Shown one piece after another: positions 2,188-50,740 of a DNA stretch of 50,740 nt. The position numbers and the translations under genes were made by a program. The notes under the pieces are model-generated. The model was not told where the DNA came from, searched no databases, and was given only the letters and a program-made list of their open reading frames with translations. Numbering within the stretch: position 1 is the first letter of the stretch; every line of letters begins with the position of its first letter. Source of the DNA: a virus. The stretch spans positions 1 through 50,740 of IMG/VR virus record IMGVR_UViG_3300036045_000015. One strand, 5' to 3'.

Positions 2188-2353
2188 AAGTAAAAGAAAC
2201 AAGACGGGTACAATCGCCCGACCATTACCATGAGATGTAATGTGAGTTGGAAAAGTGCTAAACGGTAGCGAAGCTGCGAAGCTACCGCCGTCTCTTCTTA
2301 TCGCTGAGCCAAGTGCAGGCGAGTTTTCGGGCACCTTCAAGGTGCCCTTTTTT
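2188..2353 (+). ncRNA. candidate structured RNA or riboregulator leader
   Basis: About 165 nt of non-coding DNA between a consensus promoter and an intrinsic terminator. Hairpins visible by eye: CATTAC/GTAATG (2223-2228 with 2237-2242), a perfect 7-bp CGGTAGC/GCTACCG stem (2263-2269 with 2281-2287), and a possible enclosing stem AGACGG/CCGTCT (2202-2207 with 2288-2293), giving a multi-branch shape. An alternative short stem CGGG/CCCG (2205-2208 with 2217-2220) would compete with the enclosing one. I do not recognise 6S RNA, tmRNA, SRP RNA, RNase P or a common riboswitch. It could be a free small RNA or an attenuating leader for the secreted-protein gene at 2398. Confidence 0.55.
2329..2353 (+). 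terminator. intrinsic terminator
   Basis: GGGCACC, loop TTCAA, GGTGCCC, then six T residues. It ends the structured RNA and lies 45 nt before the next start codon. Confidence 0.9.
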
Positions 2354-2397: not shown

Positions 2398-3198
2398 GTG
2401 TATAGAAAAACTTTGCTGATTTTGACATTTTGTTTGGTACTTGTTTTTGTGCCCTTAAAAGTTTTGGCACAAAATGAAGTCGTGGTTCGTCATCATTGTT
2501 TTGACCGTCAATCGCAGACACACTATTTTCAAATTGAAAATTCTACTGATAGCGCCGTTGAATTTTTTGTATATGAGTGGGCACAAACTCCGCCCCGCCG
2601 TTATTTGGTTGCGGTAAAACTTGTGCCGCCACAAACGATTGATTATGTGCGCACACAGGGGGGCGGGCGCATAGATTTCGACACTGTTAATCGGCGTTAT
2701 GTTGTGTATGAAAATTTTCTTCCATCATGTTGGGCGGGTTTTCAACCTGTAGCGGTTTCAATACCGCAAGATACGGAGGACGAACCTATGTCATTTTCTT
2801 TTGCTGCGAGTGAGTGCTTACCCTTTATGCTGCCTGCGTTAGCGGGGTACACATATACAGTGATGTGGCGTACTCCGGTTGACGGGGGCGGTGCAGTTAT
2901 CGCGGCGTCGGGGGTTATCAGCAGTTACGGCGATGTTTCATTTGTGTTAGCGGCGGGGCGCTATCCTTCACAGCCAAATGCGCACGAGTTTACTGACATG
3001 CGGACAAATGAAGTTTTTGCCGCCTATAGCTACTATGATGTGTTTGTAGCAGATCAATTTGTAGCGACGGTTGTTCAACGTGCTTTGGGCGATTTTTCTA
3101 ATCCGCGTTGTTATCTGCTTGAAGGCGCGTATTCGCGTTTTGTTCAGCCTCGACAAACTTGGGAAACAACGCCAATTGCCCGTAAAAATGAGAACTAA
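2398..3198 (+). CDS. secreted protein of unknown function
   Basis: 266 aa with a GTG start preceded by AGGGAG. The N-terminus is a clear Sec signal peptide: basic YRK, a hydrophobic core LLILTFCLVLVFVPL, and a likely cleavage after VLA-Q near residue 24. The mature part is rich in Tyr, Val and Pro, has a few cysteines (among them one in RHHC and one in NPRCY) and looks like an all-beta domain; no catalytic motif is recognised. A phage protein exported across the host membrane could act at the cell surface, for example in superinfection exclusion or adhesion; that is inference. The upstream structured RNA and terminator may control its expression. Confidence 0.7.
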   Translation: MYRKTLLILTFCLVLVFVPLKVLAQNEVVVRHHCFDRQSQTHYFQIENSTDSAVEFFVYEWAQTPPRRYLVAVKLVPPQTIDYVRTQGGGRIDFDTVNRRYVVYENFLPSCWAGFQPVAVSIPQDTEDEPMSFSFAASECLPFMLPALAGYTYTVMWRTPVDGGGAVIAASGVISSYGDVSFVLAAGRYPSQPNAHEFTDMRTNEVFAAYSYYDVFVADQFVATVVQRALGDFSNPRCYLLEGAYSRFVQPRQTWETTPIARKNEN

Positions 3199-3202
3199 GG
3201 GC

Positions 3203-3231
3203 TTGACAGTCGAGCTAATTCGACGGATAAT
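3203..3231 (+). promoter_or_regulatory. sigma70-like promoter of the primase-helicase gene
   Basis: TTGACA (3203-3208), 17-nt spacer, GATAAT (3226-3231). The spacer is almost all palindrome, GTCGA-gctaat-TCGAC (3209-3224). Predicted start is near 3238, inside the loop of the overlapping terminator hairpin. Confidence 0.75.
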
Positions 3232-3262
3232 AGACGGACATTTAGTTCGTCTATTTTTTTTT
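3229..3262 (+). terminator. terminator overlapping the -10 of the next promoter
   Basis: AATAGACG (3229-3236) and CGTCTATT (3248-3255) form a stem followed by a run of T. It would end transcripts from the secreted-protein gene. RNA begun at the local promoter would start in the loop and lack the left arm, so it should pass. Confidence 0.65.
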
Positions 3263-7626: not shown

Positions 7627-8146
7627 CGATAGCGGTTATCGGCGCACGTGGGGAACGGGGGCACAGCGTGATGTTGTCAAGGATAAGCCTGATTTTTTGA
7701 AATTTTTAGTCTTGCGAGCAATGATGTTAGAACAGGAGCGTTTGACAGGAATACCCTTTATTGTTGAAGCCGCAGGGGTGCCGTCTTTAACGCCAACTTT
7801 TGCACAATTGTACGATGATTATCGCCCTGATTTGTTGCCCGAAATCGCGCTTGAACGTTTGGCAATGCTGCTGGGGCGTGGCGCTAAAAAGTACGGAGAT
7901 CGAAATTGGGAATTGGGCATTCCTGTAGATGTGTTTGCTGCCTCTGCGTTGCGACACATGATGCAGTGGTTATTGGGAGATACTACTGAAGACCACGCCG
8001 CCGCTGTTCTTTTTAATATCGCAGCGGCTATGACCACTGAAGCGCGAGTTCAGGCGGGGGAACTGCCTTCAAGCCTTATTGGTTATTATGGTGTTTTGGG
8101 TAAACAAGTTGACTACGATAGTGATGATAGCTCTGTAAAGCCTTGA
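7613..8146 (+). CDS. MazZ-like dATP/dGTP diphosphohydrolase family protein
   Basis: 177 aa. ATG at 7613 after GTGAGG overlaps the previous gene by 14 nt; an earlier ATG at 7562 would overlap it much more. The core matches the phage family once called DUF5664 (dATP/dGTP diphosphohydrolase): LLPEIALERLAMLLGRGAKK, then KYGDRNWELG, then ASALRHMMQWLLGD and a following acidic TTEDHAA metal site. This MazG-like fold removes pyrophosphate from dNTPs; in some Z-genome phages its relative MazZ makes dGMP for 2-aminoadenine synthesis. No PurZ or DatZ gene is seen here, so pool adjustment or host-alarmone control is as likely. Its stop overlaps the next promoter. Confidence 0.7.
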   Translation: MYRTNDSGYRRTWGTGAQRDVVKDKPDFLKFLVLRAMMLEQERLTGIPFIVEAAGVPSLTPTFAQLYDDYRPDLLPEIALERLAMLLGRGAKKYGDRNWELGIPVDVFAASALRHMMQWLLGDTTEDHAAAVLFNIAAAMTTEARVQAGELPSSLIGYYGVLGKQVDYDSDDSSVKP

Positions 8147-8170
8147 CAAAGTAATAATGTAACTTAAACT
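8143..8170 (+). promoter_or_regulatory. sigma70-like promoter of the packaging genes
   Basis: TTGACA (8143-8148), 16-nt spacer, TAAACT (8165-8170). Predicted start near 8177 falls inside the first arm of the terminator stem that follows. Confidence 0.6.
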
Positions 8171-8172
8171 AT

Positions 8173-8197
8173 GGGGCGATAATTATCGCCCCTTTTT
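8173..8197 (+). terminator. terminator overlapping a transcription start
   Basis: Perfect 20-bp palindrome GGGGCGATAATTATCGCCCC followed by five T residues. It should end upstream RNA. Transcripts of the local promoter would begin within the first arm and form a shortened, weaker stem. Confidence 0.8.
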
Positions 8198-10442: not shown

Positions 10443-11954
10443 ATGCCAAGTGCTGTTAAATACTATCCTCCAAGTACGCCTGAACGTCAAAGACTTATGG
10501 TCGCCGCCTCTCAAGAGCGAGCGCAACGGGTAATGGACTATGAAAGAGCGTTACAATACTATTACGGTAATCACCCGCTGCCGATAACAGTCGAAGACAA
10601 TATGCCGGATGACAATGTAGTTATCAATATGGTGCGTATGGTCGGGGATCGGACTGCGCAGTTTTTGTTTCCAGAACCGCCTAAATTTGAGACAGACATT
10701 GACAGCTTAGAAGACACGGAAGAAGAAATTTGGCTAAGAGAGCTATTTGAAAAGTCTGGCGGTTTGGCGTTTTTCAACCGTTGGGCAGTTCGAGGTTATT
10801 TATCGGGGCATACATTTTTAAGAGTTATGCCGCCAAAGTTTCCCGGCGATCAACCGTTTTTGACGTTGTATGACCCGACCCAAGTTGTGCCCTATTGGGA
10901 TGCGGAAAACCCATCTATCGTATTGTGGTATGAATTGCGGTATGCAGTCGGCGAAGATTTTTACATGATTGATTTTTATCGCAAGGGGCTAAATAGCTGG
11001 GGCATTGATAAGTATATCAACCGTAATCGAGTAGATGGCGCGGGCGGCACATTCTATGAGCGCACCGTGCAGCAGCAGTCAATGCTTTTTCGAGCGTTGT
11101 GGTCTACGGATTTGGGTGCGGCGGGCTGGGAGTTGGTGCAGTTGGGCAATTGGGAAAGTAATTATCCCCCCATAATTGATGTGCCCCATCTCCCTGACCC
11201 CGATAAACCCTACGGTATGAGTGAAGTTGCTAATTTACGATTACAGGACACGATTAATCGCATATTCAGTTTGATGAACATGATTGTGCGTAAACATTCT
11301 ACACCTGTGGATGTTATTACGGGGGCAGATGTTGATGATGTAGATAACAGTACAGAAGATTTATTCGCTATTGCTTCGCCGGGCGCAAAAGTTACTCGTC
11401 TTGAGTTAAAGGGCGATCTTGCAGCAGTTGATCAAGCGCTAGAACGGGCTATTATCATGTATCTTGCCCTTGCCCGCGTAGTTTTGCTGCGCGGGGAAGT
11501 CGCAGATTTGCAGCGCGTTACAAATGCTTCAGTGAAGACCCTATTTTTAGATGCGCTTGCAAAGAACACACTTTTGTGGTCATCTTATAGCGCTGCCTTA
11601 AAAATAGCAGCAGCTACCGCGCTAGAGATTGGTTACGCAAATCGGCTAATTACAAATAATCCGGTAAACTTGGATATTCAAGTCGTGCGGGCAGAGCCGT
11701 TACCGACTGATATGCTGGAAGTCGCACAGATTAATGCAATGGGGATTACGGGCGGGTATATGTCTCGACAAGATGCTGCGACACGTTTGGGCTTAAATTG
11801 GGCGCGAACCTCGTCTGCGATAAAGGCAGAACATGATGTAATGATGGAACGTCAAGTCGCGGACGCCGCAATGATGCAAACTGTCAGCCCGAACCAATCG
11901 AATTCAGAGCAAAAAGAGCGTTCAAATGAGCAAAATGTTGACAATGAGAATTAG
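10443..11954 (+). CDS. portal protein
   Basis: 503 aa, ATG 4 nt after GGAGATCA. Typical portal start: a helical region, ALQYYYGNHP, then NVVINMVRMVGDRTAQFLF and FFNRWAVRGYLSGHTFLRVMP. The clip/stem part is followed by DPDKPYGMSEVANLRLQDTINRI and a long crown-like helical region. The end is Gln/Ser/Glu-rich and probably disordered. It forms the ring through which DNA enters and leaves the head. It follows terminase by 9 nt. A consensus promoter lies over its last codons. Confidence 0.9.
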   Translation: MPSAVKYYPPSTPERQRLMVAASQERAQRVMDYERALQYYYGNHPLPITVEDNMPDDNVVINMVRMVGDRTAQFLFPEPPKFETDIDSLEDTEEEIWLRELFEKSGGLAFFNRWAVRGYLSGHTFLRVMPPKFPGDQPFLTLYDPTQVVPYWDAENPSIVLWYELRYAVGEDFYMIDFYRKGLNSWGIDKYINRNRVDGAGGTFYERTVQQQSMLFRALWSTDLGAAGWELVQLGNWESNYPPIIDVPHLPDPDKPYGMSEVANLRLQDTINRIFSLMNMIVRKHSTPVDVITGADVDDVDNSTEDLFAIASPGAKVTRLELKGDLAAVDQALERAIIMYLALARVVLLRGEVADLQRVTNASVKTLFLDALAKNTLLWSSYSAALKIAAATALEIGYANRLITNNPVNLDIQVVRAEPLPTDMLEVAQINAMGITGGYMSRQDAATRLGLNWARTSSAIKAEHDVMMERQVADAAMMQTVSPNQSNSEQKERSNEQNVDNEN

Positions 11955-11965
11955 CAATCTATAAT
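11938..11965 (+). promoter_or_regulatory. strong consensus promoter of scaffold and capsid genes
   Basis: TTGACA (11938-11943), 16-nt spacer, TATAAT (11960-11965), overlapping the end of the portal gene. It would give the capsid operon high output; predicted start near 11972. Confidence 0.8.
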
Positions 11966-11971
11966 GCTTAT

Positions 11972-12147
11972 TTGTGGGGTTGTCCTGAACTTTTGGGGTG
12001 CAGGCGGGTGCTGTGCGCCCCAATACTTAGGATTAACGCCGCTGCCAACTGTTAATAGATATAGTTGGCAATTCATTAATACTTATATTTAGGGGGCGGC
12101 GAGTGCCGCCCTCTTTGGTTCGGGCGAGTGCCCAAAAGGAACCCCAA
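11972..12147 (+). promoter_or_regulatory. structured 5' leader of the scaffold gene
   Basis: About 175 nt without a gene. It holds TGCCAACT/AGTTGGCA (12043-12050 with 12063-12070), GGGCGGC-GAGT-GCCGCCC (12094-12111) and GGGC-GAGT-GCCC (12122-12133), two hairpins with the same GAGT loop. GGGGTT near the 5' end (11976-11981) can pair with AACCCC (12140-12145) beside the AAAGGA binding site. The layout suggests translational control of scaffold and capsid production; this is inferred from pairing only. Confidence 0.45.
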
Positions 12148-12729
12148 ATGCGCTACAAATTAGTTGACGAACAAGGTGTAGAAGTTCCGGCTGAAAGTGT
12201 GACATCTGAACATTTACGAGAGTTCAAGCCGTACCAAGAGGTTCTTGAGGAAAGCATTGAACGTCGTAAAGTTATTGCATCGCTCAAGGCAACGCAGAAT
12301 AAGCCGGAAAAATCCGCGCCAGAAGATGCAGAGCAAGTTAATTCTGCTGTTCCCGTTTTGCCAAAAGTTGAAATGTCAAAAGTCGAGGCTCCGTCTTTTG
12401 ACCCCAGTGCGCTGGTCGCTCAGCTAGAACGCGACATTACTGCAAAAGTTACGGCGGCGCTGGCAGCAGCAAAACAAGCTGAACAGGAACAAGAGCAACA
12501 AATGAATGGGCTGTTACGCGAATTTAAGCTGCCCGCTATAGCGCGTGAAGCACTTGCCCCTGTAGCTGACCCGAATGTTCGTCGGCAAATTGCAGACGCG
12601 CTTAGCCGTTCTGGATTACGTCACGATTATGTTGACGAAGGCGGGCAAAAAGAACCGCCGCAAGCTGAATTTTTAGCGAGGCTAGATAAACGGCTTAATT
12701 TGTCAGACGATAATAAACCATTCGGTTGA
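12148..12729 (+). CDS. capsid scaffold protein
   Basis: 193 aa, ATG after AAAGGA. Highly charged and Ala/Gln/Glu-rich. Residues about 90-130 form a coiled coil (LVAQLERDITAKVTAALAAAKQAEQ), followed by EQEQQMNGLLREFKLPAIAREAL and a helical C-terminus. This is the usual composition of phage scaffolds, and the gene lies between portal and major capsid as expected. It would guide capsid assembly and leave the prohead. A fused protease is not seen. An alternative upstream GTG at 12103 lies inside a hairpin and is unlikely. Confidence 0.75.
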   Translation: MRYKLVDEQGVEVPAESVTSEHLREFKPYQEVLEESIERRKVIASLKATQNKPEKSAPEDAEQVNSAVPVLPKVEMSKVEAPSFDPSALVAQLERDITAKVTAALAAAKQAEQEQEQQMNGLLREFKLPAIAREALAPVADPNVRRQIADALSRSGLRHDYVDEGGQKEPPQAEFLARLDKRLNLSDDNKPFG

Positions 12730-17570: not shown

Positions 17571-17603
17571 CGCCCGTTGACGATGGTCATCGGGCGCTTT
17601 TTT
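17571..17603 (+). terminator. intrinsic terminator between tail chaperones and tape measure
   Basis: CGCCCG-t-TGAC-gatg-GTCA-t-CGGGCG followed by six T residues, a strong stem. It lies inside the virion gene block, just before the tape measure gene, so part of the transcription may stop here and lower the supply of tail-tip genes relative to head and tube genes. Confidence 0.85.
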
Positions 17604-29055: not shown

Positions 29056-29147
29056 GATATAGTAAACCAAACTACTCGACCAGAAAAGTGCCAAAAAACT
29101 ATAGTTTTATTGCGCTTTTCTGGTCGAGTAGTTTGGTTTACTATATC
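29056..29147. repeat. perfect 33-bp inverted repeat
   Basis: Arms 29056-29088 and 29115-29147 are perfect complements around 26 nt; the loop itself contains the palindrome AAAACTATAGTTTT (29095-29108). Almost the whole 92 bp can fold into one hairpin. No T-run follows; the -35 of the next promoter begins on the very next base. TTTGGTTTACTA of the right arm recurs near 39901. Function unknown: protein-binding site, RNase III substrate or barrier to read-through. Confidence 0.95.
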
Positions 29148-41688: not shown

Positions 41689-41734
41689 GAGGACATCACA
41701 TGAAAATTTCAACTCACTGAGAGGCAGCACAAAA

Positions 41735-43019: not shown

Positions 43020-43091
43020 AATTTACGCAATTTTCACAAATCACTCATCATAGGTCTTGACACAATGTACCATTATGACCTATGATGAGTG
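43020..43091 (+). promoter_or_regulatory. early promoter 3: reversed box and 15-bp inverted repeat
   Basis: AATTTACGCAATTTTCA (43020-43036) is the box in reverse with two mismatches. CACTCATCATAGGTC (43042-43056) and GACCTATGATGAGTG (43077-43091) are perfect arms. TTGACA (43057-43062) begins the loop and TATGAT (43081-43086, 18-nt spacer) lies within the right arm. RNA starts near 43093. Confidence 0.85.
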
Positions 43092-43131
43092 TGTAAGACG
43101 AAATTTTAACTCACTGAGAGGATAAACACCG

Positions 43132-46480: not shown

Positions 46481-46637
46481 TATATTATCTTTTGATGTGA
46501 TATTTTTTGATATATTATGATTTATTTTATTCTGATGTGTGTTATTCGGATGATGTAATTAATTACAGCCCTTAACCCCCCACTAATAGATGCTCATGCA
46601 CCCGCTGGCGATCTTCCAATTTTCCAAAAAACAGTTC

Positions 46638-46760
46638 GTTTGTAAATTGTAACACTTGAATAAAAAGTGTTACTCCACTCCAAAATTGCAAAAAACATAA
46701 TATATAATGGGGATTTTGAAGCGATTAACACTTTTTATTCAAGTGTTACAATTTACAAAC
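46638..46760. repeat. perfect 35-bp inverted repeat
   Basis: Arms 46638-46672 and 46726-46760 are perfect complements around 53 AT-rich nt. Each arm also contains an internal palindrome AACACTT-gaataaa-AAGTGTT, so each arm can fold alone. It begins GTTTGTAAATTGTAACACTT. It lies inside the origin-like region. Confidence 0.95.
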
Positions 46761-46796
46761 CTTTTCTTTTTGGCGCATTTTCACCGTATTTCGTGT

Positions 46797-46906
46797 ATTT
46801 CGTGAATAAAAGTTCTTAATCCACTCGAAACGTGTCGAAAAACTAGGGCATTTGGAGATTTCGTGAATAAAAGTTCTTAATCCGCGCAAAAGTTGCAGAA
46901 AAACTA
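46797..46906. repeat. two 49-bp direct repeats, 61-bp period
   Basis: Copies 46797-46845 and 46858-46906 share an identical 26-bp start (ATTTCGTGAATAAAAGTTCT, then TAATCC) and an identical end GAAAAACTA, with a variable middle. A related AATAAAAGTTCCTAAT lies near 41433. Position just before the next promoter suggests a paired binding site. Confidence 0.85.
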
Positions 46907-48968: not shown

Positions 48969-50740
48969 ATGAGAATTGCAAACATACGAGATTTAACAGC
49001 GGGTTTTGTGGTAGTTTTTGTGCTTTTATTGGGGCTGTTGCTGCTAAACGCCGAACAGGTAATTCAGCTATCGGGGTATGGTGCGCAGCAAGTTTCTGTT
49101 CCGACGTTTGTAGTTGGCGGTTCGGGGGGCTACCCGACGATTGCCGCAGCTTTAACGGCAGCTGCGGGGTCGCCCAGCGCTGTTATCGAGATTTCTTCGG
49201 GAGTTTATCGAGAGCAGGTTAGCTTGTCTGGGCGTTCCGGTATCACGCTGCGGGGCATGGGGGCGGTTACGATCAGCGCTTTCAATGTTATCAGCGCCCC
49301 AACGCTGCACAGCACGGGGGTTTACCGCGTCCCGTTGACGCTTAATTTGGGTCTGGCTGATCCGAATTCGGTGTGGAGTAATGTGACTGTCGCAGTTCCG
49401 GCGCGGCAGCGAATGCACGTTTGGGTTGCTCAGGTTCGTTTACGTCCTGTTACGCAGTTGCCCGCTGACGGGGAATATTGGCACGATACGGCGAATGGCG
49501 TATTGTATGTTAACCCCGTTGGTACCTTAGTGCCAACGGAGGTGGAAGTATCGGCGCGGGAATACGGGCTTATTGCCGAAAATGCTCAGGATATTCAAAT
49601 TGAGAATTTGGCTATTGAGGGGTGCGCTAGTCGGGTTCAAGGGGGCTGTGTTCAGTTTCGGAGAACAGATAATATCTATATGCGTGATGTGACTGTCACG
49701 CGCAGCGGTTACAGCGGCTTTGACTTTTATGATACGGACAATGTTGAGTTGTCCAATTTAACTGCCAATCGCAACGGGGTACGTGACTTCGGGGTGCAGC
49801 GGGCGGAGAATTTGGCGCTTATTGGATTTGAGTTTACCAATACGGGCTGGAAGATTACTGAGAGTGAGCCGCGTCCGGTAGAGAGTAGTTCGCCGCTTAT
49901 TGCTTGGGATGGCGGTAATAAGATTTTGTTTTGTTGGGATTGCGTTTTTGAGAATGGCGTTGTGGACGACATTCGCGGTATTGGAATGTGGTTTGACTTT
50001 GATAATCAAAGAACGGTATTACGGAATTCGCGGATTACTGATGCCGAGCTTGCGGGCGTATTTGTCGAAGCGAATTGTACGGTGTCGGGGGGCTACAGTG
50101 TTTCGTTGCAGCAAGTATTTATTGAACATGGGCTGCCCGGCATGAGTACGCGCGGGGACAATGCTTATTGGGGCGCGTTGTTTATTACGGGAACGGACGG
50201 GGCGCTGTTTGAAGACGTTTATATTCGTTCGGGGGGTCGTAATGGGGTTATGATCACTAATCCTGACCGGACGGTGCAAACTAAAATTGGCACGACTTGT
50301 CAGACGGGTAATCGGAATAATGTGTTTCGTCGTTTAACGGTTGAACAGGTGAGTAACGGGTTTACAAACGCAGCGCTCATTCAAATGGCGTATGGGGGTA
50401 ACGGATATTACGCCACCACCGAGTTTGATGAAACTATTGTTGACCCGCTTTCCGGCAACTCGCAGCCGTTAATGCTGGAATTTGTATCGAGACCATTAAA
50501 TACGTTTGTCAGTTTGATTAAGCCCGGCAGTGACGTTGCGATTATGGATGCACAATTGCCACAAAGTACACCCCCAGTTTTACAAACTGCAACGCCAACG
50601 GCAACGAATACACCAACGAATACACCAACGAATACACCAACGAATACACCAACGAATACACCAACGAATACACCAACGAATACACCAACGAATACACCAA
50701 CGAATACACCAACGAATACACCAACGAATACACCAACGAA
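48969..50740 (+). CDS. secreted/virion beta-helix protein, N-terminal part (runs off the window)
   Basis: At least 590 codons, open to the right edge; the end lies at 3-212 if the molecule is circular. ATG after GGAGGATATTT. The N-terminus has a hydrophobic helix (AGFVVVFVLLLGLLLL), then VPTFVVGGSGGYPTIAAALT, as in pectin-lyase-like right-handed beta-helices. Repeating short strands follow (IQIENLAIEGC, NIYMRDVTVTRSG, NVELSNLTANRNG, GALFEDVYIRSGGRNG), the ladder of such folds. From residue 546 the Thr-Asn-Thr-Pro repeat forms a long extended linker. It is the kind of protein that acts as depolymerase, adhesin or tailspike. The signal-like helix is unusual for a tailspike, so export or membrane anchoring in the host is also possible. 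Confidence 0.8.
   Translation, partial: MRIANIRDLTAGFVVVFVLLLGLLLLNAEQVIQLSGYGAQQVSVPTFVVGGSGGYPTIAAALTAAAGSPSAVIEISSGVYREQVSLSGRSGITLRGMGAVTISAFNVISAPTLHSTGVYRVPLTLNLGLADPNSVWSNVTVAVPARQRMHVWVAQVRLRPVTQLPADGEYWHDTANGVLYVNPVGTLVPTEVEVSAREYGLIAENAQDIQIENLAIEGCASRVQGGCVQFRRTDNIYMRDVTVTRSGYSGFDFYDTDNVELSNLTANRNGVRDFGVQRAENLALIGFEFTNTGWKITESEPRPVESSSPLIAWDGGNKILFCWDCVFENGVVDDIRGIGMWFDFDNQRTVLRNSRITDAELAGVFVEANCTVSGGYSVSLQQVFIEHGLPGMSTRGDNAYWGALFITGTDGALFEDVYIRSGGRNGVMITNPDRTVQTKIGTTCQTGNRNNVFRRLTVEQVSNGFTNAALIQMAYGGNGYYATTEFDETIVDPLSGNSQPLMLEFVSRPLNTFVSLIKPGSDVAIMDAQLPQSTPPVLQTATPTATNTPTNTPTNTPTNTPTNTPTNTPTNTPTNTPTNTPTNTPTNTPT
50604..50740 (+). repeat. 12-nt tandem repeat (Thr-Asn-Thr-Pro codons), right end
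   Basis: About 11.4 exact copies of ACGAATACACCA reach the window edge, in frame with the beta-helix gene. Together with the repeat at the left end they mark the opening point of the molecule. Confidence 0.97.

Follow-up and report, generated by a model that had tools for sequence, protein, structure and literature searches.

A short, terminated and folded RNA predicted ahead of a secreted-protein gene in a phage genome, most likely a phage small RNA

What is made from the stretch at positions 2188-2353 of the virus record IMGVR_UViG_3300036045_000015, where a promoter is followed within a short distance by a terminator and only then by a gene for a putatively secreted protein, and what might the product do? 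The window analysed here, i.e., the whole stretch of 50,740 bases, is that entire record. Its start (1-109) and end (50600-50740) are made of an identical 12-nt tandem repeat encoding TNTP units, the terminal 100 bases are the same at both ends, and a gene that starts at 48969 and encodes a right-handed beta-helix protein runs across the junction; given this 100-base overlap and the gene spanning it, the genome can be taken to close as a circle. It codes for terminase, portal, polymerase, helicase and primase-like proteins and, to judge from sequence comparisons, is the circular genome of an orphan phage with no close kin. Among its 13 terminase relatives in the genome collection the best six, at 32-46% identity, all come from Anaerolineae contigs, so that the host class is probably Anaerolineae, an assignment that is likely and not proven.

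The elements bearing on transcription of the locus and its flanks are:

1851-2156, + strand: upstream open reading frame (ORF) with no assigned function, ending within the -35 element of the promoter
2153-2181, + strand: sigma70-type extended-minus-10 promoter TTGACA-17-TAAGAT, from sequence and a whole-window scan (TTGACA 2153-2158; spacer of 17 nt; TG 2173-2174; TAAGAT 2176-2181)
2188-2353, + strand: predicted terminated transcript of about 160-166 nt, its start placed by prediction and its end by the U-run
2329-2353, + strand: intrinsic terminator with an 8 bp stem (2329-2336/2340-2347), a loop of 3 and U6 at 2348-2353
2352-2379, + strand: weak promoter-like site TTGTAT-16-TACAAT, 8 of 12 matches, sole candidate for a promoter of gene 2398's own
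2384-2389, + strand: Shine-Dalgarno-like AGGGAG of gene 2398, read directly
2398-3198, + strand: ORF of 266 aa with a GTG start and a signal-peptide-like N-terminal segment (the secreted-protein gene)

The consensus promoter claimed in an earlier note on this DNA is borne out both by its elements and by the set to which it belongs. At a scan cut-off of at least 11 (matches out of 12, plus 1 for TG), equally stringent sites in the whole window number 19 on the + strand and one on the - strand, where 1.2 (sd 1.1) per strand are expected from 30 Markov sequences, and the recognised phage genes lie on the same + strand. This strand-specific excess, matching the orientation of the recognised genes, indicates that the 19 sites represent a real promoter class and that promoter 2153 is very probably functional. 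Its -35 shares bases with the stop codon that ends the upstream ORF, and transcription would start at about 2188, 7 nt past the -10. When 17 of the 19 promoters are tabulated against hand-chosen start codons, with 46725 (lying among repeats, with a further promoter between it and the gene) and 48218 (with its predicted start past the nearest ATG) left out, a start codon lies 11-52 nt past 15 of these 17; the exceptions are 11938, at 176 nt, and 2153, at 210 nt with the terminator in between.

That terminator is far beyond chance. Its hairpin has an energy of -13.8 kcal/mol, and none of 500 shuffles of segment 2327-2353 folds equally well (z -5.3). Hairpin-plus-T-run sites at -12 or below occur eight times on the + strand and once on the - strand, where Markov sequence gives 0.5 per strand, two of the eight (29989 and 36579) being inside genes. 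From the end of the U-run at 2353 to the GTG at 2398 there is a gap of 44 nt, in keeping with the terminator that had been placed 45 nt before the secreted-protein gene.

Between the two signals the RNA is predicted to adopt the following structures:

2194-2299, + strand: predicted three-way junction, from thermodynamics only (outer stem 2194-2198/2295-2299; closing stem 2202-2207/2288-2293; P2 2208-2258; P3 2263-2269/2281-2287)
2205-2220, + strand: alternative hairpin CGGG-N8-CCCG, which excludes the closing stem and is disfavoured by the pair probabilities
2301-2322, + strand: small fourth hairpin, z -1.34 alone

The minimum-energy and centroid structures concur on the junction, with pair probabilities of 0.77-1.0 overall. 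The prediction upholds both the claim of at least two firm hairpins, with 2263-2287 at 0.95-1.0 and P2 at 0.84-0.98, and the closing stem, raised earlier as a possibility and now at 0.92-1.0. Of the mutually exclusive alternative proposed along with it, the hairpin itself exists, but it is rare (probability 0.002-0.023) and costs 4.9 kcal/mol. With its terminator the whole RNA reaches a minimum free energy of -55.1 (z -3.17; in a repeat run z -3.06, with 2 of 500 shuffles equally good), and the junction core at 2202-2293 has z -2.98, equalled by one of 500 dinucleotide shuffles. The body without the terminator folds only moderately better than its shuffles (z -2.14; 11 of 500 dinucleotide shuffles equally good) and is unremarkable for this genome, because 10.4% of 675 sliding windows scanned genome-wide with 40 shuffles each reach z of -2 or below (4.4% reach -3 or below); the minus strand of the stretch also folds, with z -2.61. 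An inverted repeat, 2144-2154/2253-2263, would give RNA initiated farther upstream a strong alternative fold (z -4.05); it was rejected, its 5' arm falling outside a transcript from 2188 and about 0.3 such repeats being expected by chance on a hand estimate.

The earlier note had offered two roles for this RNA, and the one it called a riboswitch-like attenuator is not borne out. A metabolite-sensing device controlling the secreted-protein gene would suit the junction fold, the terminator and the same-strand downstream gene with no consensus promoter, and the existence of an alternative hairpin, though disfavoured, also speaks for it. An attenuator, however, needs an antiterminator, and ligand-free thermodynamics predicts no stable one competing with the terminator: while the 3' arm of the terminator is not yet made, its 5' arm pairs with upstream sequence at a mean of 0.352 vs 0.598 in shuffles, and it is paired at least as much in 283 of the 300 shuffles made of that upstream sequence. 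The low probability of the alternative hairpin and the lack of any Rfam riboswitch match argue the same way, making such a device very improbable. In a model of the RNA free of ligand and protein the sequence looks built to terminate, and since the terminator arm is kept free of upstream pairing a discrete RNA is favoured over a riboswitch.

The other role, a new phage small RNA, is partly supported, for the anatomy fits: a non-coding sequence flanked by its own promoter and a strong terminator, with a compact predicted fold. Across the window no Rfam covariance model matches at the gathering score; allowing E up to 10 brings only sub-threshold matches, the top ones driven by the terminator hairpin (e.g., isrD at 19.2 of 37 bits and MicA at 20.5 of 41), so that membership of a known Rfam family is rejected and the RNA stays unrecognised, as first described. 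No tRNA or tmRNA was found. None of the ORFs of at least 6 codons starting in 2188-2397 has a Shine-Dalgarno sequence that convinces by eye, and a leader peptide was rejected on this ground for ORFs of 12, 8, 45 and 16 codons; of the ORFs that cover this sequence, the longest two (64 aa, on the minus strand, and 45 aa) are without a PHROGs match. The best duplexes with 55 phage start regions are equalled or bettered by 59 of 200 shuffled RNAs, in an antisense test confined to those regions and weak since its unconstrained duplex model favours long pairings.

Taken together, there is good support for the locus being a transcription unit whose product, a short RNA with a predicted fold and a terminator at its end, most likely functions as a phage small RNA. 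Promoter 2153 would drive a short unit ending at terminator 2348 and yielding a non-coding RNA of about 160-166 nt; most initiations would halt at 2348-2353, leaving a compact molecule of three-way junction, small hairpin and terminator hairpin that might act in trans on some partner, while a minority of polymerases might read through to provide the mRNA for secreted protein 2398. In this full form, with action in trans and gene 2398 served by read-through, the proposal is tentative, at somewhat less than an even chance. It is argued for by the distance of promoter 2153 from any gene and the terminator within that distance, where nearly all usable promoters sit close to a start codon; by the strength of the terminator hairpin, its free arm and the fold of the junction core; and by the lack of tRNA, tmRNA, Rfam or PHROGs matches and of a convincing ORF. 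Against it stand the moderate body fold, of a kind common genome-wide, the lack of a homologue in the collections searched, duplexes with phage start regions that do not rise above those of shuffled RNAs, and the adjacent same-strand gene with no consensus promoter, which suggests a leader role; the candidate may prove ordinary. Phages do make trans-acting small RNAs, e.g., PreS/LPR1 and 6S of lambda and VpdS of VP882, and the likeness lies in a short, phage-made non-coding RNA; those RNAs have been observed as transcripts, their partners have been studied and several of them need Hfq, whereas the present one is predicted from sequence (PMC12197685). Within the limited literature collection searched, no small RNA of an Anaerolineae phage was found.

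The alternatives turn on gene 2398, an ORF with no Pfam, PHROGs or clear PDB match. It has no consensus promoter but just the 8-of-12 site at 2352-2379, and by the sequence transcription into it must cross the terminator unless that weak site is used. The main rival, doubtful yet to be taken seriously, is an ordinary gene boundary, at which the terminator at 2348 closes the upstream operon (1274-2156), promoter 2153 through a leaky terminator or the weak site serves gene 2398, and the RNA in between is functionless. No other terminator lies between that operon and 2329, and the body fold is of moderate significance only; terminators also stand directly before genes elsewhere (3254, 8193, 17598 and 48948, and likewise 32590, all 21-68 nt before hand-chosen gene starts). 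For three of these a promoter is present: 3203, 32604, and TTGACA-16-TAAACT just upstream of 8193 (10 of 12, by eye). As a separate observation, the promoters at 3203-3255 and about 8143-8192 overlap the preceding gene's terminator; RNA initiated there would begin inside the hairpin and so escape it. At an ordinary boundary, however, a near-consensus promoter ahead of a strong terminator would waste initiations, 15 of 17 usable promoters start much nearer their gene, and both P3 and the closing stem are firmly predicted.

The terminated product of the lambda PR' promoter is 6S RNA, of about 194 nt, and a terminator likewise lies here between promoter 2153 and a gene with no consensus promoter of its own, the weak 8-of-12 site aside. 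A leader gated by antitermination would give a short terminated RNA until a factor modifying RNA polymerase, or the RNA itself as in HK022 put, permits passage of 2348 and later terminators; this is unlikely, and a shade more so in the extended form in which a factor or put-like fold passes 2348, 17598 and 48948 and the leader at 11972-12147 is the late-operon counterpart. The order of promoter, short RNA, terminator and gene speaks for such a leader, as do the terminators at 17598 (before the tape-measure gene) and 48948 (before the beta-helix gene), which like 2348 have no promoter of at least 9 of 12 in the stretch checked. The promoter spacer also contains ATATGT twice (2158-2163 and 2168-2173), a 6-bp direct repeat 10 bp apart, though a direct repeat of at least 6 in 19 nt has a chance of 0.009, which comes to about 0.15 for all 17 promoters, and this one was noticed post hoc. 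There is a TACAAT at +22, farther from the start than is usual for Q pauses, and among the Pfam matches of the 28 ORFs scanned there is no Q-like or other antitermination gene. Repeat and TACAAT loosely resemble the Q-binding element and -10-like pause site as described for such promoters (PMC6606751). The likeness to lambda PR'-tR'-Q extends to the promoter, the short terminated RNA and the gene behind the terminator with no consensus promoter of its own, and the difference is that here there is no recognised Q gene, no convincing pause or Q-binding element, and one gene before the next terminator (PMC6606751). HK022 put is similar in being a structured RNA that adjoins a phage promoter and precedes terminators; it is described as about 70 nt with two stem-loops (PMC9378689), whereas the RNA here has 139 nt, and the three-way junction predicted for it spans 106 nt.

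Relatives might have helped to choose between a small RNA acting in trans and these alternatives, and no homologue of the RNA was found in the IMG/VR, phage or plasmid collections or in 396 genomes of the class of one Anaerolineae genome (G002, the genome behind Anaerolineae locus L087). In exact-word scans of IMG/VR viral contigs the primase, secreted protein, portal and capsid are without relatives, and the terminase has only distant ones, none sharing other genes; such pattern scans may miss relatives below about 70% protein identity, by estimate. Scans of the same contigs with RNA patterns gave 2, 2 and 25 loci, rejected as chance after blastn, protein comparison and a covariance model. 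Among phage records the terminase, polymerase and helicase have distant relatives only, the capsid, portal and primase none, and the RNA stretch two weak matches; in plasmids it has no match. In the genome contigs the portal is without relatives and was not found in 5 of the terminase-matching genomes, and the 13 terminase matches share no other genes. Over the 396 genomes a single-sequence covariance model (R1) gave one match of 20.6 bits (E 0.0756 per genome; 0.0061 for the same locus when 21 loci were searched), taken as chance over that number of genomes, as were short DNA matches in 26 of 396, the best at E 7e-4 over 26 nt of the terminator. The secreted protein has a match in none of the 396 and the primase in two, both weak and local. 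Should the transcript be made, a bacterial class that has received little study would have a phage with a non-coding RNA; should it gate gene 2398, one secreted-protein gene would be seen to be controlled by a terminator. Being a lone sequence with no relatives, it resolves no open question alone.

Several other elements of the genome deserve mention. At 11938-12147 a 12-of-12 promoter, TTGACA-16-TATAAT, is followed by a 176-nt non-coding leader and a gene start at 12148, upstream of the capsid-position gene. By its predicted folding (z -6.25; 0 of 200 shuffles equally good) the leader at 11972-12147, which has no Rfam match at the gathering score, is a stronger structured-RNA candidate than 2188-2353. 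The stretch GTGCAGGCG common to both was rejected as evidence, 9 of 120 shuffles being equally good. A 46-nt inverted repeat, 93% complementary and with no spacer, occupies 29056-29147 (window z -17.8) and ends exactly where promoter 29148, which serves an HNH-endonuclease-like gene, begins. Around promoter 43057 a perfect 15-nt inverted repeat (43042-43091), its second arm over the -10, is operator-like, and the leaders at 41700-41725 and 43102-43122 (approximate coordinates) have in common, ahead of the start codon, a stretch resembling AATTT(C/T)AACTCACTGAGAGG. Finally, the AT-rich non-coding region 46600-46900, with a 58-nt inverted repeat of 83% plus diverged copies, is a candidate replication origin.
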